DNA from: Bacteroidales bacterium
Lineage (GTDB): Bacteria > Bacteroidota > Bacteroidia > Bacteroidales > P3
Assembly: GCA_017542345.1 (NCBI GenBank)
Contig: JAFXXI010000006.1
Coordinates: 1-64,000 of the forward strand
Direction: 5' to 3'
Length of the DNA: 64,000 nucleotides
Shown: one piece after another, positions 2,956 through 50,409 of the stretch
Layout of the letters: each line of letters begins with the position of its first letter
How positions within the stretch are numbered: the stretch's first letter is position 1
Notes under the pieces: model-generated
The model's input: the letters and a program-made list of their open reading frames with translations, nothing else
What the model was told of the DNA's origin: nothing
Database searches by the model: none
Made by a program: the position numbers and the translations under genes

Positions 2956-3095
2956 CCCCCTCGACACCCCCTCCTTACCCCCTCCGCATCCCCTGGCCAT
3001 TTTCTACGGATTTGAGCGGAGGGGGACCGGAGCGGGACCGGAGGGGGACCGGAGCGGGACCGGAGGGGGACCGGAGGGGAAGCGGAGGGGAAGGG
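2956..3095. repeat. 11-bp-periodic C-rich to G-rich array (site A)
   Basis: This fills most of the 320-bp divergent gap between ruvB and the stress-protein gene. It reads as consecutive 11-mers: four C-rich units (CCCCCTCGACA, CCCCCTCCTTA, CCCCCTCCGCA, TCCCCTGGCCA at 2956-2999), a transitional unit, then G-rich units from 3021 alternating GGGGGACCGGA and GCGGGACCGGA and ending in GGGGAAGCGGA. The 10-mer CCCCCTCCGC (2978-2987) is exactly complementary to GCGGAGGGGG (3016-3025), so the two halves can pair, and the G half has repeated runs of three to five G. No gene is present; the remaining 3096-3178 is A/T-rich with no convincing promoter match. See sites B-D. Confidence 0.9.
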
Positions 3096-3178
3096 ATAAA
3101 AAAAGTTGACGCGAGGACAATATATGAGTGCCGGGTGCGTTATAGATAATAAAAACATATTATAATAATAGACAACGC

Positions 3179-4018
3179 ATGAAATCCATCATTGTAGGAA
3201 CCGACTTCTCCGAAGGGTCGTATGCCGCCCTCGAGCTTGCCATCGACGTGGCCAACCGTATGCAGTGCGGCATATTGCTGGTGTGGGTAAGGCGCGAGAA
3301 ACTGTTGTTCACCGGTGAACAGCTTGAGACGATGACCAACCTGGCCAAGGACAAGTTGTCGGTGCTGTGCGAGAAATACCGTCCGGCGATGAAGCACGGC
3401 ACATTGGAGTGCCGCATTGTGAGCGGCAAGGTGTCGTCGGCCATCGCCGAGCTGGCCAAGAAGGAATTGTCGCCGATGATTATCATCGGTACCAACGGTG
3501 CATCGGGATACGAGAAATATGTGATTGGCAGCCAGGCGGCACGCATTGTGCAGGATTCGCCGTGCCCGGTGCTGACGATGCGTCAGGGCTTCGACTTCCA
3601 CAAGCAGCTGGAACGCATCGTGGTGCCGCTGCGCGTCAACGCCAATTCGCGCCAGAAGGTGCCGCCCGCGGCGACGATGGCACGCATCTTCGGCTCGGAA
3701 GTCTACCTGCTGGGCCTGCTGGATTTGAAGGAGGAGGAGTCGGCCCTGCGCACCTATATCGGGCAGAGCATCGACTACCTCGAGAAAGAGCACATCCCCT
3801 ACCGTTTCGAGATTCGCCCCTACTCCACCTATAGCGATACCGTGCTGAAATACGCCGACGAGGTGAAGGCTGACTTAGTGATTATCAACACCGAGCAGGA
3901 CAGGGTGATTTCGCAGCTGTTCCTCGGCACCAACGCACAGCAGATTGTCCACAAGTCGCAGATTCCGGTGCTGTGCATCCATCCGGCCGACTATATCAAC
4001 GTGGCTGCAAGAGTCTAA
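3179..4018 (+). CDS. Tandem universal stress protein (UspA family)
   Basis: A 279-residue cytoplasmic protein of two Usp domains (about 1-145 and 148-279), the double-domain form common in Bacteroidota. Domain 1 carries the nucleotide-binding pattern G-2X-G-9X-G-S at residues 104-118 (GTNGASG...IGS), so ATP binding is likely there. Domain 2 begins at ERIVVPL and has a more degenerate loop (LGTNAQQIV). Such proteins accumulate under stress and energy limitation, but their partners vary and cannot be assigned here. The ATG at 3179 gives the expected start MKSIIVGTDFS. It is followed 9 bp later by the YhiN-like gene, suggesting one transcript. Confidence 0.92.
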   Translation: MKSIIVGTDFSEGSYAALELAIDVANRMQCGILLVWVRREKLLFTGEQLETMTNLAKDKLSVLCEKYRPAMKHGTLECRIVSGKVSSAIAELAKKELSPMIIIGTNGASGYEKYVIGSQAARIVQDSPCPVLTMRQGFDFHKQLERIVVPLRVNANSRQKVPPAATMARIFGSEVYLLGLLDLKEEESALRTYIGQSIDYLEKEHIPYRFEIRPYSTYSDTVLKYADEVKADLVIINTEQDRVISQLFLGTNAQQIVHKSQIPVLCIHPADYINVAARV

Positions 4019-4027
4019 AAGGGAATT

Positions 4028-5305
4028 ATGGAGTGTGATGTGGTTGTGGTCGGCGGCGGCGCCGCGGGGCTGATGGCCGCCGTGGTGGCGGCGCGCCGCG
4101 GCAAGCGCGTGCTGTTGCTGGAGAAGATGGACCAGGCCGGCCGCAAACTGCGCATCACCGGCAAGGGACGCTGCAACCTGACCAACACCAACCCGCTGCG
4201 CGACACACTGCCGCACATCGGCAGTAGCACCGCCGGCAGCACCAACAAGCCCGGCCAGAGCGGCGGGGTGTGGCTGCGCAACGCCTACGGGCGCTTTTTC
4301 AACCAGGAACTGATGGATTTCTTTGAGGAGCGGGGCGTGGCCCTGACCGTGGAGCGCGGCAACCGCGTCTATCCCACCTCGGGGAAAGCCCTCGACATAT
4401 TCCTCGCCCTCATCAGCGAGCTGGAGTCCAGTCCCAATGTCACCATCCGCAAAAACGCCTCCGTCAAGAAGATAGAGACCCTTGACGGACAGGCTACAGC
4501 GGTCATCACCGACCGCAACGAGCGCTTCGCCTGCCGCCACATCATACTGGCCACCGGCGGACTCTCCTACCCCACTACCGGCTCGACCGGCGCCGGCTAC
4601 CGCATGGCCCGCGAACTGGGGCACACCGTGGTCGAGCCTGTTCCGTCGCTCGTGGCGTTGAAATGTGAGGAGGAGATTCCGGAGGAGCTGGTGGGCTTCC
4701 AACTGAAAAACGTGGGTCTCTCCGTGCAGGATGCTTCCGGAAAGGTCCTTTGCAGCCATTTCGGCGAGATGACTTTCTGCAGCGACGGCCTCGCAGGCCC
4801 CATCGTACTCAGCACCAGTCGCATCATCACCCGGCAACTGCACACCGGACACTCTCCGCTTACCGCCACACTCGACTTGAAGCCCGCCTTGTCGCCTGAG
4901 CAACTGGACCGTCGCCTGCTGGCAGACATCGACGCCAACGGCACACGCATCTTCAACGACGCACTGCGTCTGTGGCTGCCGGCCGAGCTGATACCATTGG
5001 CGCTACCGCAGCTGCACATAGAATATTACAAACGCCTGCACCAGATTACCGGCGAGGAGCGCCGCCGGCTGCGCGAATGGCTGAAGGGGGTGCGCTTCAC
5101 CCTGAGCGGTACCCACGACTGGAACGAGGCCGTGGTGACCCAGGGAGGTGTGTCGCTGGCTGAGGTGAATCCCAAGACCATGGAGAGCCGGTTGGTGAAA
5201 GGGATGTACATTGTGGGCGAACTGCTCGACCTCGATGCCGACACCGGTGGCTACAACCTGCAAATAGCATTCAGTACCGGCCACGCTGCCGGTGAAGCAG
5301 TATAA
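4028..5305 (+). CDS. YhiN/HI0933-family FAD-dependent oxidoreductase
   Basis: A 425-residue flavoprotein of the HI0933/YhiN family (also annotated as aminoacetone oxidase-like). The N-terminal FAD motif VVVGGGAAGLMAA is at about 6-18, followed by the diagnostic RKLRITGKGRCNLTN block near 40-55. The second dinucleotide-binding element ILATGGLSYP and the C-terminal GGYNLQIAFSTGHAAG, which closes over FAD, are both present. The physiological substrate of the family is not settled. It is probably co-transcribed with the stress protein and ends at a strong bidirectional terminator. Confidence 0.92.
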   Translation: MECDVVVVGGGAAGLMAAVVAARRGKRVLLLEKMDQAGRKLRITGKGRCNLTNTNPLRDTLPHIGSSTAGSTNKPGQSGGVWLRNAYGRFFNQELMDFFEERGVALTVERGNRVYPTSGKALDIFLALISELESSPNVTIRKNASVKKIETLDGQATAVITDRNERFACRHIILATGGLSYPTTGSTGAGYRMARELGHTVVEPVPSLVALKCEEEIPEELVGFQLKNVGLSVQDASGKVLCSHFGEMTFCSDGLAGPIVLSTSRIITRQLHTGHSPLTATLDLKPALSPEQLDRRLLADIDANGTRIFNDALRLWLPAELIPLALPQLHIEYYKRLHQITGEERRRLREWLKGVRFTLSGTHDWNEAVVTQGGVSLAEVNPKTMESRLVKGMYIVGELLDLDADTGGYNLQIAFSTGHAAGEAV

Positions 5306-5308
5306 CAC

Positions 5309-5344
5309 AAAAAAGCCCCGACGATTGCTCGTCGGGGCTTTTTT
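5309..5344. terminator. Bidirectional intrinsic terminator
   Basis: A 14-bp perfect stem (5311-5324 with 5329-5342, core GCCCCGACGA) with loop TTGC is flanked by A and T runs, so it works on both strands. It separates the convergent YhiN-like and ABC-F genes. Confidence 0.95.
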
Positions 5345-5352
5345 GTGCCGCA

Positions 5353-7254: not shown

Positions 7255-7257
7255 GGA

Positions 7258-7947: not shown

Positions 7948-8068
7948 ATTATTGTTTTTTAATTATTTATTCTAATTTTACAGGTATTCTGCACCCTATC
8001 TTTCGCACCGCTAAAATACTAAAAAAATCCGAATTACCAACAAAAAAATGTTAATTCAGCACATTTTT

Positions 8069-11000
8069 TTAACATGCCGCCACCGAGATGTCGGGCAACA
8101 GGTATATGATGTAGCCGCTCACCGACGGGTGCCCCATGGCCCGCAAGGCTTGGCAGTATTCACCCACCTGCTCGCTGTGTTCAGCCAGCGGCACGCCCGT
8201 CTTGAAGTCGACGACCCATGTGGCGTCGGGCGCAAAGACCACGCGGTCGGGACGGAGGCGCTTGCCGTCGGTCACCAGCTCGCACTCGTTGCTGACCCGC
8301 AGCGCAGGGTCGAAGAATCGCGCCGTGTCGGGGTGTGTCACTACACGGTGCGCCAACGCCGTCAATTCCTGCATCTCCTCGTCATCCACCGTCTGCGCCG
8401 CCGCAAAGCGTGCCACCGCCGCGTCGACATCGGCGGCACAGGCCACACCGGCCAGCAGGTCATGAGCATAGATACCAAAGCGTATCTTGCGCTCCAACAG
8501 CGCCGTAGTTGCCTTCTCGGCGGGCGATGCAATGCGCACCTTCGTGGTCCAATCCGAAAACGAGAGTCGGTCCACCCCCACCACTGCTTTCTTCCGCGTC
8601 GTACCGGAGCCGACACTGTGGAAGTCCGGGTCGCCTTCGCTGACGCCTTCGGGCGCGAAACCATAGAGCAGCGACGGATAACGCAGGTCCCGCGAACGGC
8701 GTTTCTTGATGTCGCCCGGGTCGGGGCAGAAGACATAGAGTTGCTCCTTGGGACGGGTGAAGGCTACATATAGGATGTTCAGGTCGTCGACCTCCGACAT
8801 CTCCTGCTCGCGTTTGCGCTGAGGCTCGAAACTAGTCGGCACATCGGCGCTGAGGCTCACATAGGCCGTCGGCAGCGATGGCGTCGACCCGTCGGCGGAG
8901 GCGCCCTCCACCACGTCGCCGTCCACATCGACCCAGAGTTCCGACGCGTGGGCGCTCCCGTACGACAACGGACAGATAACCACCGGCTTACCCAATCCCT
9001 TCGACTTATGTATGGTAAGCAGTTGAACGGCATCGAGTTCCTCCGAGGCGGCGGCCGATAGGTTTTTCTGTGCGTCGAACCACTCGAGGAAGTCGCCCAC
9101 CCCCTGGCGGTGCATCGCCGAGAAGGCAGCCACGCGGTTGAGCAACGACGCCACATAGGGCGTGTCGATGCCGTCGAGACGCAGTTGGCGCACAATCTCC
9201 TCGCAGCATCCGTAGAGGTCGAACGATGCCAGATAATCGAGGTTGACCGGCAGCGGCGGCACCCCTGTCGGCAGCCCGTCGCATAGGAAGCCGTCGAGGC
9301 CAGCTTCCCAACCGCCCGACGGGTTCATTCCCATCGCCTCCAGCCTGTAGAGCAGGTCTGCCATCGCCACACGGTCGGCACGATTGTGGAGAAGGCGCAG
9401 CGTGGAAATGATGGCCATGACGGCATGGCTTTCACAGAGATAGAACGACTCCGTCGAGGTCTGCGGCACTGTGCTGTGGCGGGCCAGGAAGCTGCTCACC
9501 TGCCCCAGTTCGGCGTTGCTGCGGGTCAGCACCACGATGTCCCTGTAGGCGTAACCCCGTTCGTGCACCAGCATCTCAATGGTCTGCAACACACGGTCGT
9601 AGACTGCCTCTCGCACCTTTTCGAAACCCGCTTCCTGCGCCTTCGCCTCAGTCACATATTCCACCTTCACATAGCCCTCGTAGCGCTTGGCGGCCAGCTG
9701 GCGCAACTCTTCGTTCCCCTCGGCGGCCAGTTCGCCGTCGGCACCACGGCCGAGGTATATCTCGCCCACTTTCGGATTGTCGGCATAGACCTCACGGGCC
9801 AAATAGCTGAAGAAGCGGTTGTTGAAGTCCACGATAGCCTTGCCGCTGCGGTGGTTTGCAGCCAGGTTCTCGACGCTGTAGTTGCCCTGCATCGGGAGCA
9901 AGCGGCCATGGTGCCTCATGCCCTCGACGCGCGGCAGGCGTATAAATTGCTCCACATCGCCCTGCCGGAAGCGGTAGATGCTCTGCTTGCCGTCGCCCAC
10001 CACGAGCGAGCGGTGGCCCTGACTGACACCGTTCTCAATCAGCGGCACCAGGTTGTGCCACTGCATCACCGAGGTGTCCTGGAACTCGTCGATGAGGAAA
10101 TGGCGATAGCGGTTGCCGAGGCGTTCGAAGAGGAACGGTGCCGGATTGTCCTCATCCTCGACCACTTTGTTTATCAATCGGTTGAAGTCGCTCAAGTGCA
10201 CCACCTCGTTGTCATGGGCATAACTGCGCATCTGGCTGTCGAGCAGTCCCAGCAGAGCCACGGAGTAGAGGTTTTTCAGCACCGCGCGGCAGGTGTTGCA
10301 GCGCACCGTCAGGGGTTGCACCTGCGCATATAGCTTCTGCAGTCGCGGCAACGCCGCCTCGGCGGCAGCCTGGAGCGCCGTAGGGGCTTTGGCGCCCGTC
10401 AGGCGACCCTCCTCAAAGGCAGCCACAGTGCGGGGCGTGGCAGCAGGGGCCTTGCCATCGGCCAGACGGCAGACATAGCCATAGTAGCCCGACATGCCGT
10501 AAGGAGCCGTTTCCTCGGTAAGGCCGGCACCGTGCAGTGTTTCAAGCATTTCGGAACCTACCTTCGCCATCGATGCCTCGGCCGCGTGCAACAGCCCCGT
10601 GTAGCGGCTGTGGATGGCCTGGAAGTCGGCGGGCGACAGCCGCTCGAGGCGTCGCAGGTGATCGCCGACATCCTCGCGGAAAAGCAAGGCGGCAAGGTCA
10701 CCCATCTGTCTCTCTATGTTGTAGTTGCGATTATCTTCCATCTCGCTCTCGGCGAAGGCGCGCAGCACCTCCGTGAGTTCGTCGTGCCCTTCGGTACCGG
10801 CCATCGACATGAGCTGTGCCACAGCCTGCTCAATCATCTCCTGCTGGTCAATCATCACCTCGAAATTCATCGGCTGGCCGAGGTCATGGGCGAAGGTGCG
10901 CACAATGCGATGCATGAAGCTGTCTATCGTACTGACCGACAAGTCGCTGTAGTGGTGCAGTATGAGACTGCGGAGCTCGTCTGCCATGCGGCTCAGCCGC

Positions 11001-11299
11001 TCGCCGTCAGCCTCTTTCCAGAGGCCGCCCATGCGGCGCAGGCTGCGCAGTATGTCGGGCCCCATGCCGTCGCCCTCGGGATCCACGGGCGCGGCGGCCA
11101 TCTCGTCGAGCTCCTGCATGATGCGCTCCTTCATCTCGGCAGCGGCCTTGTTGGTGAACGTGATGGCCAGCACCGAACGGAAACCCGGCAGCAACAGTTC
11201 CTCACCGCCTGCGAAGACCATCGTAAGATACTCCTTCACAAGCGTATATGTCTTTCCTGCACCGGCCGAAGCCTTGTATATCACAAAGGGAGTTTCCAT
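8069..11299 (-). CDS. AddA/RecB-like UvrD helicase-nuclease
   Basis: A 1,076-residue SF1A helicase with a C-terminal nuclease, the AddA (RecB-like) subunit that processes double-strand breaks for recombination. Walker A KASAGAGKTYTL is at 9-20, AITFTNKAAAEMKERI (motif Ia) near 45-60, DEFQDTS (motif II) near 405 and VQLLTIHKSKGL (motif V) near 765. A PD-(D/E)XK nuclease core RPDRVVF...VVDFKTG is near 1020-1037. The partner AddB normally lies next to addA; neither neighbour (tonB, mutA) is addB, so it must be elsewhere. A -7 element lies at 11324-11332. Confidence 0.9.
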   Translation of the reverse strand: METPFVIYKASAGAGKTYTLVKEYLTMVFAGGEELLLPGFRSVLAITFTNKAAAEMKERIMQELDEMAAAPVDPEGDGMGPDILRSLRRMGGLWKEADGERLSRMADELRSLILHHYSDLSVSTIDSFMHRIVRTFAHDLGQPMNFEVMIDQQEMIEQAVAQLMSMAGTEGHDELTEVLRAFAESEMEDNRNYNIERQMGDLAALLFREDVGDHLRRLERLSPADFQAIHSRYTGLLHAAEASMAKVGSEMLETLHGAGLTEETAPYGMSGYYGYVCRLADGKAPAATPRTVAAFEEGRLTGAKAPTALQAAAEAALPRLQKLYAQVQPLTVRCNTCRAVLKNLYSVALLGLLDSQMRSYAHDNEVVHLSDFNRLINKVVEDEDNPAPFLFERLGNRYRHFLIDEFQDTSVMQWHNLVPLIENGVSQGHRSLVVGDGKQSIYRFRQGDVEQFIRLPRVEGMRHHGRLLPMQGNYSVENLAANHRSGKAIVDFNNRFFSYLAREVYADNPKVGEIYLGRGADGELAAEGNEELRQLAAKRYEGYVKVEYVTEAKAQEAGFEKVREAVYDRVLQTIEMLVHERGYAYRDIVVLTRSNAELGQVSSFLARHSTVPQTSTESFYLCESHAVMAIISTLRLLHNRADRVAMADLLYRLEAMGMNPSGGWEAGLDGFLCDGLPTGVPPLPVNLDYLASFDLYGCCEEIVRQLRLDGIDTPYVASLLNRVAAFSAMHRQGVGDFLEWFDAQKNLSAAASEELDAVQLLTIHKSKGLGKPVVICPLSYGSAHASELWVDVDGDVVEGASADGSTPSLPTAYVSLSADVPTSFEPQRKREQEMSEVDDLNILYVAFTRPKEQLYVFCPDPGDIKKRRSRDLRYPSLLYGFAPEGVSEGDPDFHSVGSGTTRKKAVVGVDRLSFSDWTTKVRIASPAEKATTALLERKIRFGIYAHDLLAGVACAADVDAAVARFAAAQTVDDEEMQELTALAHRVVTHPDTARFFDPALRVSNECELVTDGKRLRPDRVVFAPDATWVVDFKTGVPLAEHSEQVGEYCQALRAMGHPSVSGYIIYLLPDISVAAC

Positions 11300-11323
11300 C
11301 GTGCAAAGCGCCTGTTTCGGGTT

Positions 11324-11332
11324 GCAAATTTA
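11324..11332 (-). promoter_or_regulatory. Probable -7 element for the addA-like gene
   Basis: TAAATTTGC on the minus strand matches TAnnTTTGC and lies 24 bp before the ATG at 11299. I see no good -33 TTTG at 19-20 bp, so this is a half-supported promoter. Confidence 0.5.
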
Positions 11333-11419
11333 CGCAAAAAATCCGAATTGCGGTGCAGCGACGACAAATTATCGCGCATTTTACTGACGTACAGCTCCCT
11401 ACAACGCATCCTCTCCAGA

Positions 11420-11505
11420 CCCCCTCCCCACCCCTTCGCAATCCGACCGAGGAGGGGCGGAGGGGGAGCGGAGCGGGTCCGGAGGGGGACCGGAGGGGAA
11501 GGTTA
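11420..11505. repeat. 11-bp-periodic C-rich to G-rich array (site B)
   Basis: It lies in the 391-bp divergent gap between the addA-like gene and mutA. C-rich 11-mers (CCCCCTCCCCA, CCCCTTCGCAA at 11420-11441) switch to G-rich 11-mers from 11462: GGGGGAGCGGA, GCGGGTCCGGA, GGGGGACCGGA, GGGGAAGGTTA. The unit sequences are nearly those of site A and the G-rich strand again points toward the plus-strand gene. Apart from the two promoters and this array the gap holds nothing I can identify. Confidence 0.88.
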
Positions 11506-11626
11506 CACATGGCTGATTTTTAGTCTTTTATATAACAACATAATTGTCAGATATTTACGCGGTGTACGTGGAAAAATGTAACGGGAGTCGGAACAGGTTT
11601 TTGGGGCGAAGTAAATATTTTTAAAA

Positions 11627-11654: not shown

Positions 11655-11690
11655 ATTTTACAACATGCAACTAAAAAACAATACAATATA

Positions 11691-13553: not shown

Positions 13554-13556
13554 CCC

Positions 13557-27826: not shown

Positions 27827-28008
27827 CAACTTTTTTTTCAATCAGCCGAAAGATTATTTTTCAACTCTGTCTTTCAACCCTTTTCCATTTGCCCACAGCC
27901 CCGTTGTCCCCGGTGCCGCCCCTCTCCACCTTTCTTTTTGGTTTCTCTCCGCAACCTCCTTCCTGCAACCGGTCGTGCAACTCACACTCTCACAGGCCCC
28001 TGTTGGGT

Positions 28009-28101
28009 ATTTCAACGGTCGTTCTACGGTCCTTCTACGCTCGTTTAACGGTAAAAAACCGTAGAAATACCGTAGAACGACCGTAGAACGACCGTAGAAC
28101 T
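28009..28101. repeat. Inverted array of 11-mers (site C, hairpin part)
   Basis: Four 11-bp units (ATTTCAACGGT, CGTTCTACGGT, CCTTCTACGCT, CGTTTAACGGT; 28009-28052), a 5-nt AAAAA centre and four units of the opposite sense (ACCGTAGAAAT, ACCGTAGAACG twice, ACCGTAGAACT; 28058-28101). The 44-bp arms can fold into a long imperfect hairpin with one perfect 11-bp pair. It belongs to the 471-bp recX/GT5 gap, which contains no gene; 27840-28008 shows only C-rich low complexity. Confidence 0.92.
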
Positions 28102-28147
28102 AGCGGAGGGGAACCGGAGGGAAAGGGGAGGGAAAAGGAAGGTAACA
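28102..28147 (+). repeat. G-rich 11-mers (site C, middle part)
   Basis: After AGCGGA come GGGGAACCGGA, GGGAAAGGGGA and GGGAAAAGGAA (28108-28140), degenerate relatives of the site A/B/D units. The G-rich strand is again the sense strand of the downstream gene. Confidence 0.8.
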
Positions 28148-28202
28148 CGGAGTCATCTCGGAGTCATCTCGGACTTTACTCGGAGTTTACTCGGAGTTAA
28201 GT
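28148..28202 (+). repeat. Direct 11-mer array CGGAGTCATCT (site C, promoter-proximal)
   Basis: Five head-to-tail units: CGGAGTCATCT twice, CGGACTTTACT, CGGAGTTTACT and CGGAGTTAAGT, ending 22 bp before the -33 element of the GT5 promoter. Confidence 0.92.
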
Positions 28203-28224
28203 CAACGGCATTCCCCAAATAAAT

Positions 28225-39260: not shown

Positions 39261-39300
39261 GGGTCAGTGTGTACCCCTTGCGGGGTCGGGGAAGGTCAAC

Positions 39301-42300
39301 TTACTTCACGATGAGCTTGCGCACCGCGGTGCCCTCGGCGGTGGTGACGCGCACGAAGTAGGCGCCCTTGGCGAGGTCGCTCACGTCGATGGTCAGGCTA
39401 CCGTCCTCGGTGTACCAGCTGCCGCTCTGGCGACCGTTGAGGTCGACCAGCGTCACCGTCGAAGCGGCGGGAGCCGTGATGGTGACCATCTCGGAAGCTG
39501 GGTTCGGGTAGACCACCACAGCCTGGTCGCCGTCGGCATCGAGGATGCCCTGGCCGCCGCTGGTGGTGGTGAAGCTCACCACAGCACTCCACACGCCGGC
39601 GGCACCACTGCAGTTACCGCGCACATAGGCGTCATAGTGGGTGTTGCGGTCGAGACCGGTCAGCACGCAGGTGTTGGTGTTCACCGTCACGCTGGTGCCG
39701 TCGCCCTGGCTCATGCCTTGGTAGCCATACTCCACGGTGTAGCTCTCGGCGCCGGTGGCGGGCCACGAGAGGGTGGCACCGGTGGCGGTGAGGTTGCTCA
39801 CGGTGATGTCGGTCACCTGCTCGCAGCGCAGGGTCGTCACCTCGAGGGTGTCGCTCCAGTCGCTGTACTCGGTCTCGGTGCAGAAGCCGCGGACGGCCAT
39901 GCTGTAGGTCGTACCTTCGACGAGGTCGGTGTAGGTGATGGTCGGAGTACCGGTCACAGTGTCATACCTATTGACGGTGGTACCTGCGAAGAGGTGCACC
40001 TCCCAGGTGGTCTGGCGGTTGCCGGGCGTCCAGGTCAGCGTGGCACCGGTGTAGGTGACGTTGGTGGTGCTGAGGTTGCTCGGAGCCGTGCAGGGCAGGT
40101 TGGCGGTGGTGAAGTTGCCGGTAGCGGCAGAGCTCCAGTTGCCGTCGTCGCACTGCTTACGCACTGCGTAGAAGTACTCGGTATTGTTGCTCAAGCCAGT
40201 CAGGTTGAAGACACCCGTGGTGTTGGTCTGCGGAGCGCCGAGGTTGTCGGGATCGGTGCCGTAGGCCAGCTCGTAGGCCAAGCCGGTACCCACAGCGGTC
40301 ACCGTGGCAGACTGGTAGGTGATGTCAGACACCGTCACACCAGGAGCCTGGCAGGAGCTGCCGCAAGAGACAAGCTTCATCGTGGGACGCCAGGTGTAGA
40401 CCGTCTTACTGCCACCGAAGGAAGCAGGCGACGACGGGTTGGGGTTCTCACTGTCGCTGTAGAAGGTGAGCGTCTTGTTGCCCGTGCAGGCGGAGGTGTT
40501 GAAGATGTAGGCCGAGCCGTTGTAGGCGTTCGAGTTATCGTCCACAATCACCAGCAGGTTGCTGTGGCCGTCCCAGGTGTAGGTGGTATCGAACTGGAAG
40601 TAGTTCCAACCATTCGAGCAGTTGAGGTGGCCACTGTAGACCAGCACAGCGGTGTTTGCGTTGAGCGCCACCACATCGGTGGTGCTGCTGAAGGTCTTCT
40701 TGGTGGTCGGCTGCAGATAGATGTTGACACTGGTCTTGCTGCTCGAAGCCGTGGTGTAGGCATAGCTGTAGGCGATAGCGGAGATATCACCGATGCCGAC
40801 CAGTTCGGCGCTGTCGATGATGGTCTCGCTGAGGGTGTACTTGTAGAAGTTGTTGACAGGAGCATTGTAGGAGGTGGCAGTGTTAGTGCCGGTGGAGGCG
40901 ATGGTGGCGCCGTCGCACAGTTCGGTGCTCAGGGTAGCCTTGGTGCTCCAGGTGCTCTGATCGGTGGCCGAGCAGAGGGCACGCACATAGACATCGTAGG
41001 CAGTCAGCGTGTCAAGACCCGAGATGGTGCAGGGGTGGCTGCTGACGGTGATGGTCTGGCCGCCGCTACCGGCAGCATGGCCCACAGGACCATAGTTGAC
41101 CTCCCACTGCGAGGCCGGGGTACCCACGTCAGTCCAGTCCACATCGATGGTAGAGGTACTGGCACCAACAGAATGGACATTGGCCACAGGCATACAGCTG
41201 GGCACGAAGTCCACCTGGATGTCGTCGAGGTAGTTGTAGCTGTAGTCGTAGGTCGTGGTGCTGGAGTTGTAGAAGTTGCGGATGGCTATGGTGCGGCTGT
41301 TGCCATGGTAGGTAGCGAAGTAGACCGTGTGCTGGGTCTTGGTGCTGGTCGGGCTGGTGATGGTCTGAACGGGGATGAAGGTGTTGCCTTCCATCACACC
41401 GACCTCAAAAGCGTAGTTGGCGCTAGCAGTGTAGTGCCATAACTTGAGTTCCAGGGTGTCGAGGTCGACCGGCATCGGCGGCAGCATAAAGTAACCCACG
41501 CCCGCGATACGCAGACTGTAAGAGCCGCTGTGGGCATAGGTGGTGCCGTAATATACACCCGGCAGATAACTGCCAGTGGTATAGCTGGAGGTTCCCGTCA
41601 ACGTGTAATCCCAGCAGTTGGGCATCACACCATAGTTGCCGCTGGTGCTAGTGTTAGTGGAAACGTTGTCGAAGTTCTCCGTGTACGGCAGGGTCACAGC
41701 GTTGCACGGCGTGGTGAAGCTCAGGGTAGCGGTGTCGTTGCAGCTGCCGATGACCATCACGTCATACTGCGTCTGCGGATTCAAACCGGTGAGGTTGATA
41801 TCGCGCGTAGTGGTGGTGGTGTCGGTGTAGGTCGCGGCGCTGTGCAGCTTGTAGCGCACGGTGTAGCTCGCGGCGGTGCTGCGGCTCCACACGAGGTAGG
41901 CAGAGGTGCCCTGCAACATTTCGGCATGCAGGTGCGATACCGGGATGCAGGCGGGCAGCGTGTCGACCACGATGTCGTCAATATAGATGTAGTTGCTCGA
42001 GGAACTGCACCGGCTGCGCATAGCGATGCGGTTGTCGGTGCCAGCGTAGTCGTTGAAGTAGCACACCACATTGTAGACGTTGTTGGTGCCACCAACGAAG
42101 TCGACCGTGTCGTAAGGCACGAAGGTGTTGGTGCTGTTCAGGGTGCCGATAACGAGACCTGCGTTGGCGGGGCTGGCGTTATGGGCACGGAAGGACATCA
42201 TCAGCGTGTTGATGGCGGGCTGCATCTGCGGCAGGGCGGCCACACCGCTGTCAGTGTTGAACTGGAAGCAGTGGGACGCTGTGCCGGTGTAGGCACCGGT

Positions 42301-45300
42301 CGAGGTGTAGATGACGTGCGGCAGGGGCGAACCCGTGGCGGTCCAGCAGTTAGGCAGGGCGTCGGCAGGGCTGGTTCCCGGAGGCACGATGCCATTCTCG
42401 AAGCTCATCACATAGGGCAGCGTGGTAATCTCAGCGCACGAGGTGGTGAAGCGGATCACCTGGCTGGCAACGGAGGTGTCGCCGCTGGCTCCGCAGACAG
42501 TGTAGACGTAGGCGTCATAGCTGGTGCTGTGGTCCAGACCGGTGAGGATGATGGGCGAGCCATTGCCCGTCACGCGGGTGCCGGTGCCCGGAGTATAGTA
42601 GCGAGGACCGTACTCAACCACATAGCTGGTGGCGTTCCGGCCCGGGTTGGTCCAGCTGATGGTGGCCGTGGTGGTGGTCACGGTGTCGACGGTGAAGTCG
42701 CTTGCCGGCGTGCACTGCGGCACATACTCGACCACAATGTCGTTGAGGAAGCTGTAGTTGTCGTTGAAGGCATCCCAGAAGGCGATGTGAGCGTGCTCAT
42801 AGCCAGCGGGGATGTTACCGGCGAACTGGTAGGTGATGTTCACCTCGTTGGTCGTCGAGTCAATCTGCGAACGGATCAGGGTGTCGAGCACATGTATCGA
42901 GGTGATGGGAGCAGCGGGATCGAGCATCAGGCCCATGAGGAAGCGCACATTTTCGCCGCCCTGGAGCAGTTTGAAGCGAATCTGCAGCGAGTCGAGCTCT
43001 TCGGCCACCTCGGGCAGAATAACATAACCACCGTTGTAGATTAAGCAAAGCCTGTCTTCCGAACCCTGGAGTCGGGTCACAATCGGCATCGGATAGGTGG
43101 TACCCAGGTTGATGGTACCCACCGTCCAGCAATAGCGCTCAAAGACACCGTTTGCTCTGTCTTCGAAGTCCTCGGTCAGAGGCAGTGGCATCGGGGCGCA
43201 CAGGGTCTGCACGGTAGCGGTGCCGGTCAGGGTTGCGCCGTCGCACTGGGTGCTGACACGGACAACATACTCGCTCGAAGGAGTCAGGCCGGTGATGCTG
43301 ATCGTGCCCGTGGTGTTGGCGGTAGCCACCGTGGTCCAAGTGCTGTCGCCCGTGGCGCGGTAGGCCACATTATAGGTGTGGCCCGTCTCGGCGTGCCAGC
43401 TCACGAAGATGGAAGTCGTCGTGGCGCTGTCGGTGAAGAGGATAGGTGTGCCGCAGGTCGGGACAGTGCAGTTGGGCTTGGTCAGCACAATCTGGTTGAC
43501 GTAGCTCAACACACCGTTACTGGCATCGGCATCGGGAGCCGCGGGCGAGAAGGGATCGTCGTCCCAGTAGTAGTAGAGCGAACGAGTCGTGCTGGTAGCC
43601 GTAGCGTTCCAGCTGGCCGAGGTTTCGTAATCACCGGTCAGGTCGTTGCAGGCAATGACCAGGTTGCTGCCGGGCGTGCGCACAAACGGAGTGGTCAGCG
43701 TGACGGTGATAAATCCGCTGGTGCCGTTCATGGTGCCGTTGAAGACCTGCGTCAGGGCGCTGGCGGGCACATAGTCGGCCGACGAGCCGAATGCGCTCTG
43801 CGTGGTGTTGGCCATGTAGATGGTCATGCTGCGCGGAATGGTGAGGGTGCCTTGATAATAATAGGTAATAGCACCGATGGTGTCAATGTCGCCAAGCTCC
43901 TCAGCCAGGTAGATTTGCTGCGTGTAACTATAATTATAGTATACATAGGTAGGCAGGTAGCTGTTGCTCGCGCCACCCTCGGTAATCATGGTGCCGCACG
44001 CCGGCGTCGAGATAGTGCCGCTGTTGGCCTCACTGACCAAGTCGCTGCAGAGGGTGAGGATGCGATACTGATAGCTGGTGTTGGCGGTCAGGCCATTGAT
44101 GTAGCAGTGGTTCGTGGTCACCACCATGCTGTCCCAAGTGGTAGCGGTGGTAGCCTTCCAGTACACGCGGTAGGCCGTGGCGGCGTTGCCCGCGGTCGGG
44201 GCATCCCAAGTCAAGCCGAAAGCGGTGTAGTCGAGACCCGCAACCGTCACATTGCTCACGGGCACGCAGTCTGCGGTGGTGGTGAAGTTCATCGTGCGCA
44301 CACGAGCCGACTCGGTGGCGCATTCAGTCCTGGCCCACACATAGTAGGTCGTGGTGCCGTGCAGGCCGGTGAAGGTGTAGCTGTTGGTGCCGGCAGGCAC
44401 GAAGGCGCTGTCGGTGGCGGCGGCGATGTTGTTCACCGTGGCGATGTAGAGCATCACACCCGTGTGGCCGGCGTTGGCGGGCACGGTCCAGGCCACCGTG
44501 GCGTTGTTGTTGCTCACGCTCGAAGCATAGAGACCCTCGACCGAGGGGCAGTTGCTGCTCTGGTACACCTCAACGTCGTCGAGCATCATGTAAATGGTTG
44601 TCGAAGTGCCTGGATGCTGAATAGAGCTGAAAGCAATATAGGTGCCAGTGCCGGTATAGTTTGCCAAGGACACAGTGAACTCCTCGTAGGTGGTTCCAGC
44701 GGGATGCACCGTATCGACTGCCACGAAGGTGGTAGCATCCAGCGGGTCAGTCATCACGCCGACCACAAAGTCGCAGTTGTAGCTGGTGCTGTACTGCCGT
44801 GCCCAGAAGTTGACCTCAAGGGTGGTAAGCAACGTGGACTCCACGGGGGGCAAAATGCCGTAGCAATAGCCACCGGAGGCGGCGTAGAAGTAGAGACCAT
44901 GGGTGTTGTTATGGCCATAGCTGGTGGTGGCATTGACGTAGGGCCGGTCGGCCGTGCTGCCCAACCTGTGCCAGCAAGAGGGGAAGGCGGTGCTGCCGGT
45001 GCCGTAGGTCTCGAAGTCTTCGAGGTAGGGCAGCGTAATGTGCTGCGGGCACGAGGTACGAGCCAGGACACTCATAGCAATACTCGAATCGGTGGAGGAG
45101 CACAGCGCGCGCACCTCGAAGTTGTAGGCCGTGTTGGGATAGAGACCCGTGACAGTGTAGAAGGTGTCGAGGGTGGTGACGTAGAAGCCCGCGCCGTCGG
45201 TAATCGACCACTCGGTTTCTTCGCCGACAGGATGCCAGCTGAGAGTGATGCTGTTCTCCGTGGCGGTGTCAACTGCGACATTGGCCACATGCGGGCAGGT

Positions 45301-48300
45301 CGGGATGGCATCCACCATGAAGTCATCGGTGTAGGCATACCAAGAGGAGGACGGACGGTTGACTCGGACAGCAATGTAGTTGCCGTTGCCATGATAGGAG
45401 TTGAGGGGAACCTCATAGAAAGTCCAATCGATGGAACCCGATGGCACATTGACCGTGTCGACCACCTGGAAGGTGCTGATGTTCTCCGGGTCGGTCATCA
45501 CGCCCACAAAGAACACGGGGGCGTAGCTGGTGCTCGAGGGACGAGCCCAGAAGCTGAGCTGCATCCCGCTGATGGGAGTCGTGGTGGTGTCCATCGGGGG
45601 CAGCACAACGACCTGGTAGTCGCCGTAGGTGCCGGTGGTGGTAGTGGAATACCAGTAGAGGCTGCGAGTGCCGCTGTGTGCTGTCGAATACACATAGGGA
45701 TAGCCAAAATAGGAGGTACCATTGTTCAGGTGGTGCCAGCAGGGGATGTCAGGACGCGCCGAGGAGCTGCCGGTGGGCAGGTCGTCAAAATTGTAGCTGT
45801 AGGGTATGGATACAGCAGCGCAATGGGTGCGGGCCGAAACCGTGCCGGCATAGAGCGTATTATCGTCGGTGCAGGTGAACGACACACGGAAGTCATAGTC
45901 CGTACCGGGGTTCAGATTGTCGAAGGTGTAGTTGGTGGTGGTCACACCGGTGGCGGCGCTGGTCCATGTCGTGGTGCCGTGCACACGGTAGTCCACATCC
46001 CACTCGGTCTCGTTGTAGCCGGGTATCCAGGCCAGTTCAACCGTGTCTTGCGACACATAGGTCGCCCGCACCGCAGGAGCGGCACAGGCAATCGTTCCGT
46101 TGTCTACCTTATAAATGTGCATGTTAGCGCGGTAGGAAAGGGAGGTGCCGCCCGAGACACTGCTGATGGTATAGGGGCTACTATCATTCTGCACATAGCG
46201 TCCGCTACCAGCGGGAGCGCTGTGGGTAGCGTAGATATAAGATGAACCAGGATAAGCATTCGAGTTATCGTGCACTACAACCAGCAGGTTGCTGGTGCCG
46301 TCATACTGGAACGGTGTGGTGAACTGGAAGTGGTTCCAACCCTGCGTGCAGTTCATGTTGCCTGTGTAGACCGGCACAAATGTATTGGCATTGTAGGTCA
46401 CGAAGGCGCTGCTGAGCGACGACGTGGTGGTATTGGCCAAGTAGATGGTCACATTGGTCTTCTGCGTTACGGCCGTAGCATAGCTATACTGGAAGTCGAT
46501 GCCGGTCAGCGTGGCAGCGCCACCCATCTCGGCAGCTGTGATAATCTGTTGAGTATAGGAATACTTATAGAAGTTGCCGATGGGGAGGTAGTATGAAGTA
46601 CCGGGGGTGCCGTCGGTTATGTCAATATAAGCGTTAGGACCTGTGGTGAACTCGATGCTGTCCCTACGGCCAAGACCGTCGTTGCCGCAGTCGGCCTGGA
46701 CGTAGGCCTTATAGGTGGTACGGGGCTGCAGACCGGTCAGCGTAGCGGTGGGCTCGGTGGCCAGCACCGTGGCGGGGCTGGTGCCTCCGATGCTGTCGTA
46801 GGTCACCTGATAGCCGCCGTCGGGGTCGCCATAGCCAGCCTGGTGATTCCAGGTGAGCAGCGCGGCACCCACGGTGGTGGCAGCGTCAAGATCGGTGATA
46901 CCCGGGCAGGTGGGCATCGGCTCGAGGGTCACATCGTCAAGCATCAGGTAGATGGCTGACGAAGAGCCAGAATGCTGGATAGCTCTGAAGGCGATATAGG
47001 AGCCAGAGCCTGTATAGGTTCCCAGGGCCACCTCGAAGTGCTCGTAGGTGGTCCCCGCGGGATGCACCGAGCCTATCGCCGTGAATGTGGAAGCATCCGT
47101 CGGGTCGGTCATCACGCCGACCTCAAAGTCGCAGTTGTAAGTGGTAGAGTACTGCCGTGCCCAGAAGCTAACCTGCAAGGTACTAATGTTCAGCGTATTG
47201 GAATCCAAAGAAGGCATAATGGCGTAGCAATAGCCCCCGGCGGCAGCGTAGAAGTAGAGGCCGTGGCTATTGTTGTGGCCGTAAGAAGTGGTGGCATAGA
47301 TGTAGGGCCTGTCGGCCGTGCTGCCCAGCTTGTACCAGCATGTGGGGAAGGCAGTGGTGCCGGAGCCGTAGCTCTCGAAGTCCTCCGTGTAGGGCAGCGT
47401 GGTCAGGGCGCCGCAGGCCGTGCGGAAGGTGAAGACAGTCGAGTCAGACATATCGCCGCCGCAGTTGGCTTTGATATAAACGACATACTGTGTGTTGGCA
47501 GCGAGGCCCGTCAGGGTGGCCATGGTGTCATAGACCGTCATCGTCGCGCCGGTGCCGGGCGTGAAGCCCACAGTGTCGTATTCCACCTCCCAGCTGCTGG
47601 GGTTGGTGGTGAAGCTGTTGGGCGTCCATCTGATGTAGGCCTCGTCTGACGTGACACTGTCAAGCGCCACAGCGGTAGGCCTGTTGCAGTTGGGGGCCTC
47701 AAGAAGCTCCACATCGTCCACATAAACATAATTGTAGCAATATGAGGCACTGCCCTGCAGCGGAGGCACAGGAGCATAGATGACCACATACTTGCCGGTG
47801 CCGGTATAGTTGGCAAAGCCCACCTCGGCATCATGGATCGAGGAGGCTGCGGTGCTGAAGTAGTCGAGGGTGTCAATCCAGGTCACCTGGGCCGCTATCG
47901 AGTCGGCATTGACAAATCCCACATAGCTGTCGGCAACACCGATATAGAGAAGCGTGGTGTAATAGTTGCTGGCGGTGGAGCCGCGTTTCACCTTCAGTCT
48001 CAACATCAGGTCGCTCATGCTAAGGGCATCATCGATGGCCGGCAAGGTTGCCCAGCTGTAGATGCGGTCGGCCGTGGCCGACGAGGGATAGTAGCCATAG
48101 AAGTAGAGGCTGCGTGTTCCGTTGACAACCGTGCTGGAGGGATAGGGGTAGGCAGTGGTGCTGTTGGTACCCTTGTGCCAGCAGGTGCTGATGGGGCTAG
48201 TCGAACTCGAGCCATAGCTCTCGAAGGTCTCGAGATAGGGCAGCGTGTCAAGTCCCAAGCAATCGGTGCGGAAGCTGAAGGTGGTCGGATCGGACTCATC

Positions 48301-50082
48301 GCCAACGCCGCAGTTGGCTCTAATATAGATGTCATACTGCGTGTTCGGGTTGAGACCCGTCAGGGCGATGGTGGTGTCGGTCATCGTCGTCGTTATGCCG
48401 GTGCCGGGGGTGAAGCCCGCGGTGTCGTACTCAACCACCCAGCTGCTGGGGTTCGCGGTGCGGCTGTCGGGCGTCCACACGATGGTGGCCTCGTCGGACG
48501 AGATGCTCGAAAGCGCCACAGCGGAAGGCCAGAAGCAGGTGGGGATGACCCTCACCGTGATATCGTCCACAAGCATGGTGTTGTAGTTCGATGCAGGCTG
48601 CGGGACCATGAAGGTGATACGGCCGTGGGGACCCGTGTAAGTGTTGAACTGCACCTCATGGTAAGTATAAGTAGTCGAGGCGTTGCTATAGATGGTATCC
48701 ATCGGCACAAAAGTGCTGGGATTGGTCGGGTCGGTCATCACACCCACAATCAAATACGATTGGTAGCTGGAGGAGCCAGAGCGAGACCAGAAATCCACCT
48801 GCAGGGTGTTAATGGGAGCCGTCGTAGAGTCAATCTCCGGAAAGATAGCATACTGGTTGGCATAGGTGCCACTGGTAATATAGGTATAGAAGCGCATGGC
48901 ATTGGCGCCGCTGTGGGTATTGCCGCTGGTGGCATAGACCATCGGGTAGCCCGAGTAGCTGGTGTTCGTACCCGTATTGTGGTGGTCCCAGCAGGGGGGC
49001 AGGTTGTTCTCCGACACCGAGGTCGTGGTGGCACCCTCAACCCCGTCAAAGTTCTCCGTGAAAGGCAGGTCGGCCAAGGTGATGCTGGTGCAGGCCGTAC
49101 GGAAACTGATACTGCTGGCAAAACTGGTGTCGTCATATCCGCAGACTCCACGCACGCTGATAGTGTAGGGGGTGTTGGCTCTGAGGGTGTCGAACACAAT
49201 CGCCGTGTCATAGACATACTCCCAGTCAGCACCATTCAGGCTATATACCCATTCAGTCTCCGTGCCACCAGGGCTCCAAGTCACTATGGCCGAATCGGTC
49301 GTAATATTGGACACCGTCAACGCCAGAGGACCCGGGCAGCTGAGGTTGCTGGGATGAATGAAAGCGTAGTAACGGTTGGCTCCAAACCAGGTACCTGAGG
49401 CATTGGTCACCGAAGAACCGTTGGTGAAATGCTGGGCTGTATTGGTGGCCGAAGAGATAATCCAGCCATCGCTGGCGCTCACGCACATGCCGCACTGATG
49501 CGACACGGCGGGAGCCGTCGAAGGAATGCCCGAAGCGGCGGGGAAGACAATCTCGATATTGCCGTTCTTGTAGAGGTGCACCTGCCACTTGTAGAGATAG
49601 TTGCGAGTAGAGCTGGTATAAGTTCCCATGCAGAACTCCACGGCAAGCAGCGTGTCGTCATCATCGGTCACATGCTGCTTCGCCTTCACATAGTGGGAGC
49701 CTGTGACACCGTAGCCGTCGCAACCGAAGGCGTTGATCTTTGGGTTGTTGACAGCAGCATTGGCCGAGCTGAACGGGGTGCTGTAGTTGGCAGTTCCCGT
49801 CACCGTGCTGCCCAGACGCAGGTTACCGTCGGTGTTCACCGAGTACTGCGTGTAGTTGGTCGAGCCAAACGGGAAACTGAACCCGATGCTCTGCACACTC
49901 GACGCCATACCGTCACTGTTCGACGGTGTCAGGATCTGCGTCGCTCCGGTCATGCTGACCCATTTCGTCGCATCGACACCCGTCGAGAAAGCATAATTCC
50001 CGAGGGTAACCGCCTGCGCCCGAGATGCCCATGGCACTACCAGTGCCGCGATGAGCATCAACAAACATAAGTGCTTTTTCAT
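39301..50082 (-). CDS. Giant fibronectin type III / MAM-like T9SS surface protein
   Basis: A 3,593-residue protein with signal peptide MKKHLCLLMLIAALVVPWASRA-Q and a C-terminal T9SS type A sorting domain (VVVYPNPASEMVTI, DLNGRQ, YFVRVTTAEG...RKLIVK). I count about 15 fibronectin type III modules (LTGL.P.T.YD..VRA.C type), eight 'choice-of-anchor'/MAM-like modules opening LPYTEDFESYG or LPFTENFDG and containing CW and VGVMTD, three modules of a Y..YSYTQQI type, and an N-terminal FG-rich beta domain. It is therefore a long surface stalk, probably an adhesin, exported by T9SS. Two MAM-like modules (around 44560-45030 and 46920-47400) are nearly identical, pointing to recent duplication. It is the largest gene in the window. 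Confidence 0.9.
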   Translation of the reverse strand: MKKHLCLLMLIAALVVPWASRAQAVTLGNYAFSTGVDATKWVSMTGATQILTPSNSDGMASSVQSIGFSFPFGSTNYTQYSVNTDGNLRLGSTVTGTANYSTPFSSANAAVNNPKINAFGCDGYGVTGSHYVKAKQHVTDDDDTLLAVEFCMGTYTSSTRNYLYKWQVHLYKNGNIEIVFPAASGIPSTAPAVSHQCGMCVSASDGWIISSATNTAQHFTNGSSVTNASGTWFGANRYYAFIHPSNLSCPGPLALTVSNITTDSAIVTWSPGGTETEWVYSLNGADWEYVYDTAIVFDTLRANTPYTISVRGVCGYDDTSFASSISFRTACTSITLADLPFTENFDGVEGATTTSVSENNLPPCWDHHNTGTNTSYSGYPMVYATSGNTHSGANAMRFYTYITSGTYANQYAIFPEIDSTTAPINTLQVDFWSRSGSSSYQSYLIVGVMTDPTNPSTFVPMDTIYSNASTTYTYHEVQFNTYTGPHGRITFMVPQPASNYNTMLVDDITVRVIPTCFWPSAVALSSISSDEATIVWTPDSRTANPSSWVVEYDTAGFTPGTGITTTMTDTTIALTGLNPNTQYDIYIRANCGVGDESDPTTFSFRTDCLGLDTLPYLETFESYGSSSTSPISTCWHKGTNSTTAYPYPSSTVVNGTRSLYFYGYYPSSATADRIYSWATLPAIDDALSMSDLMLRLKVKRGSTASNYYTTLLYIGVADSYVGFVNADSIAAQVTWIDTLDYFSTAASSIHDAEVGFANYTGTGKYVVIYAPVPPLQGSASYCYNYVYVDDVELLEAPNCNRPTAVALDSVTSDEAYIRWTPNSFTTNPSSWEVEYDTVGFTPGTGATMTVYDTMATLTGLAANTQYVVYIKANCGGDMSDSTVFTFRTACGALTTLPYTEDFESYGSGTTAFPTCWYKLGSTADRPYIYATTSYGHNNSHGLYFYAAAGGYCYAIMPSLDSNTLNISTLQVSFWARQYSTTYNCDFEVGVMTDPTDASTFTAIGSVHPAGTTYEHFEVALGTYTGSGSYIAFRAIQHSGSSSAIYLMLDDVTLEPMPTCPGITDLDAATTVGAALLTWNHQAGYGDPDGGYQVTYDSIGGTSPATVLATEPTATLTGLQPRTTYKAYVQADCGNDGLGRRDSIEFTTGPNAYIDITDGTPGTSYYLPIGNFYKYSYTQQIITAAEMGGAATLTGIDFQYSYATAVTQKTNVTIYLANTTTSSLSSAFVTYNANTFVPVYTGNMNCTQGWNHFQFTTPFQYDGTSNLLVVVHDNSNAYPGSSYIYATHSAPAGSGRYVQNDSSPYTISSVSGGTSLSYRANMHIYKVDNGTIACAAPAVRATYVSQDTVELAWIPGYNETEWDVDYRVHGTTTWTSAATGVTTTNYTFDNLNPGTDYDFRVSFTCTDDNTLYAGTVSARTHCAAVSIPYSYNFDDLPTGSSSARPDIPCWHHLNNGTSYFGYPYVYSTAHSGTRSLYWYSTTTTGTYGDYQVVVLPPMDTTTTPISGMQLSFWARPSSTSYAPVFFVGVMTDPENISTFQVVDTVNVPSGSIDWTFYEVPLNSYHGNGNYIAVRVNRPSSSWYAYTDDFMVDAIPTCPHVANVAVDTATENSITLSWHPVGEETEWSITDGAGFYVTTLDTFYTVTGLYPNTAYNFEVRALCSSTDSSIAMSVLARTSCPQHITLPYLEDFETYGTGSTAFPSCWHRLGSTADRPYVNATTSYGHNNTHGLYFYAASGGYCYGILPPVESTLLTTLEVNFWARQYSTSYNCDFVVGVMTDPLDATTFVAVDTVHPAGTTYEEFTVSLANYTGTGTYIAFSSIQHPGTSTTIYMMLDDVEVYQSSNCPSVEGLYASSVSNNNATVAWTVPANAGHTGVMLYIATVNNIAAATDSAFVPAGTNSYTFTGLHGTTTYYVWARTECATESARVRTMNFTTTADCVPVSNVTVAGLDYTAFGLTWDAPTAGNAATAYRVYWKATTATTWDSMVVTTNHCYINGLTANTSYQYRILTLCSDLVSEANSGTISTPACGTMITEGGASNSYLPTYVYYNYSYTQQIYLAEELGDIDTIGAITYYYQGTLTIPRSMTIYMANTTQSAFGSSADYVPASALTQVFNGTMNGTSGFITVTLTTPFVRTPGSNLVIACNDLTGDYETSASWNATATSTTRSLYYYWDDDPFSPAAPDADASNGVLSYVNQIVLTKPNCTVPTCGTPILFTDSATTTSIFVSWHAETGHTYNVAYRATGDSTWTTVATANTTGTISITGLTPSSEYVVRVSTQCDGATLTGTATVQTLCAPMPLPLTEDFEDRANGVFERYCWTVGTINLGTTYPMPIVTRLQGSEDRLCLIYNGGYVILPEVAEELDSLQIRFKLLQGGENVRFLMGLMLDPAAPITSIHVLDTLIRSQIDSTTNEVNITYQFAGNIPAGYEHAHIAFWDAFNDNYSFLNDIVVEYVPQCTPASDFTVDTVTTTTATISWTNPGRNATSYVVEYGPRYYTPGTGTRVTGNGSPIILTGLDHSTSYDAYVYTVCGASGDTSVASQVIRFTTSCAEITTLPYVMSFENGIVPPGTSPADALPNCWTATGSPLPHVIYTSTGAYTGTASHCFQFNTDSGVAALPQMQPAINTLMMSFRAHNASPANAGLVIGTLNSTNTFVPYDTVDFVGGTNNVYNVVCYFNDYAGTDNRIAMRSRCSSSSNYIYIDDIVVDTLPACIPVSHLHAEMLQGTSAYLVWSRSTAASYTVRYKLHSAATYTDTTTTTRDINLTGLNPQTQYDVMVIGSCNDTATLSFTTPCNAVTLPYTENFDNVSTNTSTSGNYGVMPNCWDYTLTGTSSYTTGSYLPGVYYGTTYAHSGSYSLRIAGVGYFMLPPMPVDLDTLELKLWHYTASANYAFEVGVMEGNTFIPVQTITSPTSTKTQHTVYFATYHGNSRTIAIRNFYNSSTTTYDYSYNYLDDIQVDFVPSCMPVANVHSVGASTSTIDVDWTDVGTPASQWEVNYGPVGHAAGSGGQTITVSSHPCTISGLDTLTAYDVYVRALCSATDQSTWSTKATLSTELCDGATIASTGTNTATSYNAPVNNFYKYTLSETIIDSAELVGIGDISAIAYSYAYTTASSSKTSVNIYLQPTTKKTFSSTTDVVALNANTAVLVYSGHLNCSNGWNYFQFDTTYTWDGHSNLLVIVDDNSNAYNGSAYIFNTSACTGNKTLTFYSDSENPNPSSPASFGGSKTVYTWRPTMKLVSCGSSCQAPGVTVSDITYQSATVTAVGTGLAYELAYGTDPDNLGAPQTNTTGVFNLTGLSNNTEYFYAVRKQCDDGNWSSAATGNFTTANLPCTAPSNLSTTNVTYTGATLTWTPGNRQTTWEVHLFAGTTVNRYDTVTGTPTITYTDLVEGTTYSMAVRGFCTETEYSDWSDTLEVTTLRCEQVTDITVSNLTATGATLSWPATGAESYTVEYGYQGMSQGDGTSVTVNTNTCVLTGLDRNTHYDAYVRGNCSGAAGVWSAVVSFTTTSGGQGILDADGDQAVVVYPNPASEMVTITAPAASTVTLVDLNGRQSGSWYTEDGSLTIDVSDLAKGAYFVRVTTAEGTAVRKLIVK

Positions 50083-50151
50083 AATGAATAAATTTAGTTA
50101 ATTGATTGATTTATATATCCTAATTAAAATATCGCCTTTTTTAAGCCTACC

Positions 50152-50184
50152 ACAAAGGTAGGAAACACATTTGAAAAAAGCAAA
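50152..50184 (-). promoter_or_regulatory. Promoter of the giant fn3 gene
   Basis: On the minus strand TTTG (50184-50181), 20-bp spacer, TACCTTTGT (50160-50152). Leader about 65 nt. Confidence 0.75.
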
Positions 50185-50275
50185 TTTTTTTTATTTTTTA
50201 ACACTCATAAAAAGCACAAAACACTCCCCCCCAGCGAGTTCCCGATTTTAAGTTAAAAAAGTCCGCCAACCACCG

Positions 50276-50409
50276 TCCGGCAACCCCCTTCCGGTCCGGT
50301 TCCCCTCCGGTCCCCCTCCGGTCCCCCTCCGCTCCCCCTCCTATCAAAATGCCACAAAATGGCCAGAGGGTCCCCGCCGGGACCCGAGGGGGTCCCGAGA
50401 GGAGTGTGA
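50276..50409. repeat. 11-bp-periodic array (site D)
   Basis: Occupies most of the 358-bp gap between the MFS stop and the fn3 gene. Units on the plus strand: TCCGGCAACCC, CCTTCCGGTCC, GGTTCCCCTCC, GGTCCCCCTCC twice, GCTCCCCCTCC (50276-50341), then after two bases TCAAAATGCCA, CAAAATGGCCA, GAGGGTCCCCG, CCGGGACCCGA, GGGGGTCCCGA, GAGGAGTGTGA (50344-50409). On the minus strand, the sense of the fn3 gene, the first block reads GGAGGGGGACC, i.e. the site A unit. The rest of the gap (50083-50275) holds the promoter and A/T-rich sequence. Confidence 0.88.

Follow-up and report, generated by a model that had tools for sequence, protein, structure and literature searches.

Arrays of 11-bp units as a dispersed, two-armed intergenic element in a Bacteroidales genome

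Results

We focused on a stretch of 64,000 nucleotides from a Bacteroidales genome (the window; positions 1 to 64,000 of contig JAFXXI010000006.1, assembly GCA_017542345.1), in which the original prediction had placed four intergenic arrays with a period of 11 bp, here called sites A to D. Tandem Repeats Finder (TRF) detected period 11 at each of these four places, and sites A, B and D are indeed built of GGAGGGGGACC-type units and site C of other units. The four arrays are copies of one dispersed intergenic element, which consists of two outward arms of 11-mers.

Site A (2951..3095) lies between ruvB on the minus strand and uspA on the plus strand. Its left arm (2956-2994) is C-rich, and its G-rich right arm (3014-3095) holds seven units on one 11-bp grid. 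Site B (11405..11500) separates an open reading frame (ORF) on the minus strand (8069-11299), by reading a putative helicase-like protein, from mutA on the plus strand, with a C-rich arm at 11405-11438 and a G-rich arm at 11447-11500. Usp for uspA and RuvB_N at site A, and MM_CoA_mutase for mutA at site B, are among the Pfam matches of the flanking proteins. Site D (50289..50403) is found between a 3593-amino-acid ORF (39301-50082, minus strand) and the 3' end of another minus-strand ORF (50441-51706); its regular arm (approximately 50289-50341) is read on the minus strand, and its other arm (50371-50403) has diverged. Sites A, B and D share one layout, in which a C-rich and a G-rich arm of opposite orientation flank a centre. 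At site C, a hairpin of different words comes first, and additional 11-mers follow it. The hairpin (28006..28105) is made of CCGTAGAACGA-type 11-mers, with arms at 28008-28052 and 28058-28102; the second part (28058..28211, plus strand) runs through 14 consecutive 11-mers that keep a single unbroken grid across three unit words, namely, ACCGTAGAACG, ACCGGAGGGAA and CTCGGAGTCAT / CTCGGAGTTTA.

The individual TRF rows cover 2956-2994 and 3017-3090 at site A (the latter with 6.7 copies and 90% match), 11458-11498 at site B (3.7 copies, 83%), several stretches inside 28011-28198 at site C and 50295-50341 at site D (4.3 copies, 94%). A strict autocorrelation threshold, applied to the window for periods of 4 to 30, was exceeded by 11 and its harmonic 22 only; sites A, C and D were above it and site B below. 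For the genome as a whole, we used an intergenic sample of 42,098 bases, composed of the window and 20 further stretches of the same genome. This sample contained 26 arrays of period 11, compared with 0 to 4 arrays for each other period from 5 to 25, except for 22 with 12 arrays, and 20 order-3 Markov simulations yielded none of period 11. The comparison with other periods in spacers, which the original prediction had proposed as a check, therefore came out in its favor. Period 7 is rare in this genome, with 3 arrays versus 32 of period 11; the window has two such arrays, at 53869-53908 and 62275-62310 (units TGAATGA and GTTTAGT). A 210-bp repeat of 2.9 copies also occurs in the window at 63288-63893, inside an ORF (62313-63968).

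The exact word GGGGGACCGGAGNGG has 66 matches in the 1.26-Mb assembly, and the reversed pattern has none; grouped from the listed positions, these matches fall into about 39 loci. For alignment, 31 oriented arms were retained from 65 matches after removal of duplicates, a few of them being the two arms of one element. By eye, the order of units outward from the centre is mostly alike (GGAGSGGGA, GCGGAGSGGGA, CCGGAGSGGGA, CCGGAGGGGAA, CCGGAC...), and the centre is related among copies, resembling TTCGCAATTCGACCGAAGATGAGC. The flanks of two copies (L040 and L050) match beyond the array, over 112 bp at 80%. Given that the copies share word, unit order and centre, the arrays are a dispersed element rather than four independent ones. 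A second family in this genome is the hairpin of CCGTAGAACGA units, and chimeras with the first family occur. Several copies carry an AT-rich module (CTGATTTT...TTTATATAA type) after the regular arm, as seen at L036, L040, L050, L014, L035, L037, L045, L049 and positions 11500-11600 of the window.

We compared the folding of the arrays as single-stranded DNA with that of shuffled sequences. The site C hairpin (28006-28110) folds far better than its shuffles (z -7.9), sites A, B and D only slightly better (z -1.5, -1.2 and -2.0, respectively), and the remainder of site C shows no excess (z -0.8). An ungapped palindrome score of at least 15 was reached by 14 of 32 arrays of this genome, by 7/10 in relative G012, by 10/19 in other genomes and by none of the 14 in relative G010, against 1 of 60 random stretches per group; palindromy is real, yet not universal. 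A search of the window against Rfam at the gathering threshold returned tRNA alone, the arrays matching no known RNA family.

With respect to gene context, in the part of the sample of this genome that was not picked by matches, an array was present in 12/28 divergent, 6/71 codirectional and 1/8 convergent spacers with a net length of 80-1500 bp (Fisher P = 2e-4 for divergent versus codirectional). The gene calls came from a simple script based on ORFs and codon usage, so that these counts carry errors; four arrays of this genome and one of G010 overlap called genes, which are perhaps over-long ORFs. Twelve relatives in or near the genus gave 18/63 divergent versus 15/173 codirectional spacers (P = 2e-4), and 17/56 versus 14/156 (P = 3e-4) once RUG71, possibly conspecific with G001, was left out. 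The highest occupancy was reached in G010, where eight of nine divergent spacers hold an array. When the additional stretches of this genome, partly picked around matches, were included, 26 of 39 arrays were divergent, 11 codirectional and 2 convergent. Hence, within this genus the arrays are found preferentially between divergent genes, a preference that was missing from the original prediction, as was their two-armed, dispersed nature. Across six species, 1 of 68 divergent spacers contains two arrays, where 5.9 would be expected for unmerged arrays (0 of 5000 draws as low) and 4.2 when arrays within 70 bp are merged (P = 0.013).

The placement also bears on two earlier claims. The first, that the G-rich strand is the sense strand of the following gene, holds at A, B and C, but trivially, because these sites lie between divergent genes and have opposite arms. 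It fails as a genome-wide rule: of ten codirectional spacers in this genome, seven have the regular arm facing the next start, whereas by reading it points the opposite way in all four of those in G010. The second, a tight distance to promoters, was not supported, as the 63 distances to the start-facing gene spread widely around a median of 120 bp (quartiles 64-168). The arrays show no lagging-strand bias relative to GC skew (19/37 stretches). We rejected terminators as an identity, because most arrays lie upstream of both genes. The flanking genes are ordinary in kind, and a linked gene family was likewise rejected, since each Pfam family is present in at most 2 of the 74 flanking proteins.

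The word used in this genome has no match in 24 genomes of the same genus and 16 of the same order. Nevertheless, arrays of period 11 with a score of at least 20 were found in 23 of 26 tallied sources (this genome, members of the genus or near named relatives, and other families), with a total of 115 arrays that rough clustering sorts into 31 unit families. The tally leaves aside 15 sources, of which 3-21 kb each were read, and four stretches of N only, and some of the stretches were picked around pattern matches or Y1_Tnp genes. The RuvB sequences of two sources, G001 and RUG10805, are identical, so that the two may be one species; their stretches do not overlap. Examples of the words are CGGACCATCCC in G010, TTACGGTAGTA in G012, GGTAGGAGTTG in several genomes and ATTATAATACC in RUG14400, whose RuvB is nearest, among the named loci, to that of an uncultured Prevotellaceae. 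G317, from another family, has six period-11 arrays over 100 kb, with three of its five stretches picked around matches. Among named genomes, the closest relatives are those of uncultured Bacteroidales, several of which carry a rumen-sample label.

Several unit families are common to more than one species. A search for CGGAG repeated three times with a spacing of 11 bp found matches in 9 of 393 genomes from the order, this one included, and the reversed control pattern had a single match in a different genome. A pattern for L150-like words gave no match in five genomes, and the 70 named loci L081-L150, 1.2 Mb in total, hold one period-11 array at the threshold applied. The core motif across unit families is weak, with GGAG in 10 (4.5 expected) and CGGA in 7 of the 31 consensus sequences, which are noisy and mix both arms; a universal core motif was therefore rejected. 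Thus, period 11 occurs with different words in different species, and the claim that the sequence changes in a unit kept at about one helical turn is supported both here and in relatives.

To describe how the arrays change, we compared units within 42 arrays of at least 88 bp. Identity was 0.72 between neighbors and then fell with distance to 0.59, 0.48, 0.37, 0.31 and 0.29 (32 arrays at the last step). Between the sister genomes G191 and G379, one orthologous spacer (L216 13565-13628; L219 9327-9379) differs by exactly one 11-bp unit with otherwise nearly identical flanks, a single case. Both observations support the suggestion of a copying process that keeps the unit length. In the ruvB-uspA spacer, this genome, L076 and G012 (weak, score 21) have arrays with three different words, and L071-L075, L077 and L080 have none; in L075, the spacer (approximately 9480-9700 of that locus) has another repeat-like sequence (GCCCCCGCAGGGGC type) in place of the 11-bp array. 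Within the unit, conserved phases are clustered: among 52 arrays, one per species and family, the lag-1 circular autocorrelation was 0.07 versus -0.10 (standard deviation, 0.04) for permuted phases. Each unit therefore has a contiguous conserved side.

Discussion

Our tentative preference is for the element as a docking strip for a putative DNA-binding protein that would separate the flanking divergent promoters. The twin-domain model predicts negative supercoiling of the DNA that lies between divergent promoters. One copy of the protein would occupy each helical turn, always on the same face of the DNA, and the strip of docked molecules would keep the promoters on either side apart. A gain or loss of a whole turn would keep the bound molecules aligned, whereas other lengths would break the strip, and the period would therefore be held while the words drift. 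The helical repeat of negatively supercoiled bacterial DNA in vivo is given as about 11 bp per turn (PMC8501960). We favor this reading because of that value, the supercoiling expected at divergent promoters and the contiguous conserved side, since such a side is what a protein contacting one face of the helix would leave.

A more specific version is doubtful: the arrays would mark the boundary between divergent promoters, as an element whose helical period rather than sequence is conserved. It would be present once per spacer, with two arms phased to the in vivo turn of supercoiled DNA, bound on one face by a fast-evolving protein and renewed by whole-unit copying. The closest parallel to a docking strip is parC of plasmid R1, described as tandem 11-bp repeats bound by ParR (PMC9426499). 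The arrays likewise consist of tandem direct repeats of 11 bp. However, they are chromosomal, occur at dozens of loci, have two outward arms and a word that is free to change, and the flanking proteins do not provide a recurrent neighbor that could correspond to the gene of a binding protein. They are somewhat parC-like in working, yet they are not parC.

Several observations weigh against a docking strip. Block-wise mutation could mimic the clustering of conserved phases, and no binding protein was found, the 74 flanking proteins lacking a recurrent family. Orthologous genes do not clearly keep their arrays, as three of nine array-bearing genes of relatives have one in this genome (Fisher P = 0.19). 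The scarcity of spacers with two arrays fades when the merging distance is raised to 150 bp (2.7 expected, P = 0.15), and the preference for divergent spacers was not seen in G317 and RUG14400, from other groups (0/11 divergent, 5/56 codirectional). The period is also unevenly represented: in the stretches read, G014 has no array and G016 has one, and the 15 sources outside the tally gave one array apiece in 2 cases and none in 13. Period 7 outnumbers period 11 in G001 (7 versus 2 arrays), G012 (15 versus 8), G002 (12 versus 1), the loci L081-L150 (19 versus 1) and a set of 20 stretches (17 versus 14). Moreover, in one genome with the CGGAG pattern (G032), the match falls within a called gene.

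Nearly as likely as the docking strip is a neutral or selfish dispersed repeat, similar to a miniature inverted-repeat transposable element (MITE), that survives where it is not transcribed, upstream of both divergent promoters. Its arms would grow and shrink by replication slippage, which keeps any unit length, 11 being an inherited accident. This reading accounts for the grid and the copying, and we consider it a serious contender. It fits the order, centre and, in part, flanks that the copies share, the likeness of neighboring units, the sister pair one unit apart, the variable presence of an array at one spacer between species, and the unit families common to several species, as in a satellite library. 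On the other hand, it leaves unexplained, on its own, why unrelated words have period 11 in several Bacteroidales families and why units have a conserved side, and it explains less well the near-full occupancy of divergent spacers in G010. Nor is there a link to Y1 transposases: of the 15 stretches that carry a Y1_Tnp gene, one has an array no more than 500 bp away from it.

Like MITEs, the arrays are noncoding copies of related order in many spacers. The aligned copies show no fixed ends, and, in contrast to MITEs, the arms vary by whole 11-bp units. No target duplication or parent transposon was found, the spacers of relatives being too diverged for a base-exact empty site. As in satellites and minisatellites, the unit length is kept as the sequence turns over, and the sister pair is a single case of the whole-unit copy change of minisatellites. 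An independent origin at each locus, typical of the latter, is contradicted by the same word, order and centre at many loci of this genome. The arrays also differ from satellites in being short, in lying in bacterial spacers and in having the same unit length in several lineages with unrelated words.

It is unlikely that the arrays act as cruciforms or hairpins, whose self-folding arms would absorb negative supercoils between divergent promoters. The excess of palindromes over random stretches and the strong hairpin of site C are in line with this idea. However, none of the G010 arrays reaches the palindrome score of 15 despite the highest occupancy, sites A, B and D fold barely better than shuffles, and a cruciform does not need tandem units of 11 bp.

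A repetitive extragenic palindromic (REP) element or bacterial interspersed mosaic element (BIME), mobilized by a REP-associated tyrosine (RAYT, Y1) transposase, is very improbable. The arrays resemble REPs and BIMEs in being dispersed, intergenic and partly palindromic, with words that differ between species, and of 99 genomes sampled from the genus, 62 contain PF01797 (Y1_Tnp). Single genomes of the genus have up to seven such matches. REPs are located mainly between unidirectional and convergent genes (PMC3733652). The arrays have the opposite location, with 12 divergent, 6 codirectional and 1 convergent of 19. Furthermore, they are built of 11-mers, and the 31 unit families have no common GTAG or CGTC tag at the foot of a stem. 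The Y1_Tnp genes are not flanked by arrays, and PF01797 has no match in this genome, which is 69.7% complete. Based on location, tag and RAYT linkage, we rejected this identity.

RNA primers are about 11 nucleotides long, and their re-annealing on a neighboring unit, by which the replication machinery would set the unit length, would give a fixed length, free sequence and likeness of nearest neighbors; this entirely inferential scheme is equally improbable given the lack of a strand bias relative to GC skew and, for a process expected in many genomes, the absence of arrays, at the threshold applied, from 69 of the 70 named loci.

We rate the arrays among the dispersed intergenic repeats. In agreement with the earlier statement that no named family is known, we found no description of such a class in the literature, with most subscription papers outside the coverage of the search. 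If the docking-strip reading is true, the arrays would be a class of their own; even if they are neutral, they are a class of dispersed repeats placed opposite to REPs. If selection or copying keeps the period rather than the sequence, the helical repeat that DNA has in living cells at divergent promoters would be naturally recorded in these arrays, which may then represent a class of bacterial elements defined by geometry. The arrays thus offer a handle on how neighboring divergent promoters are separated and on how repeat units keep their length as their letters change.

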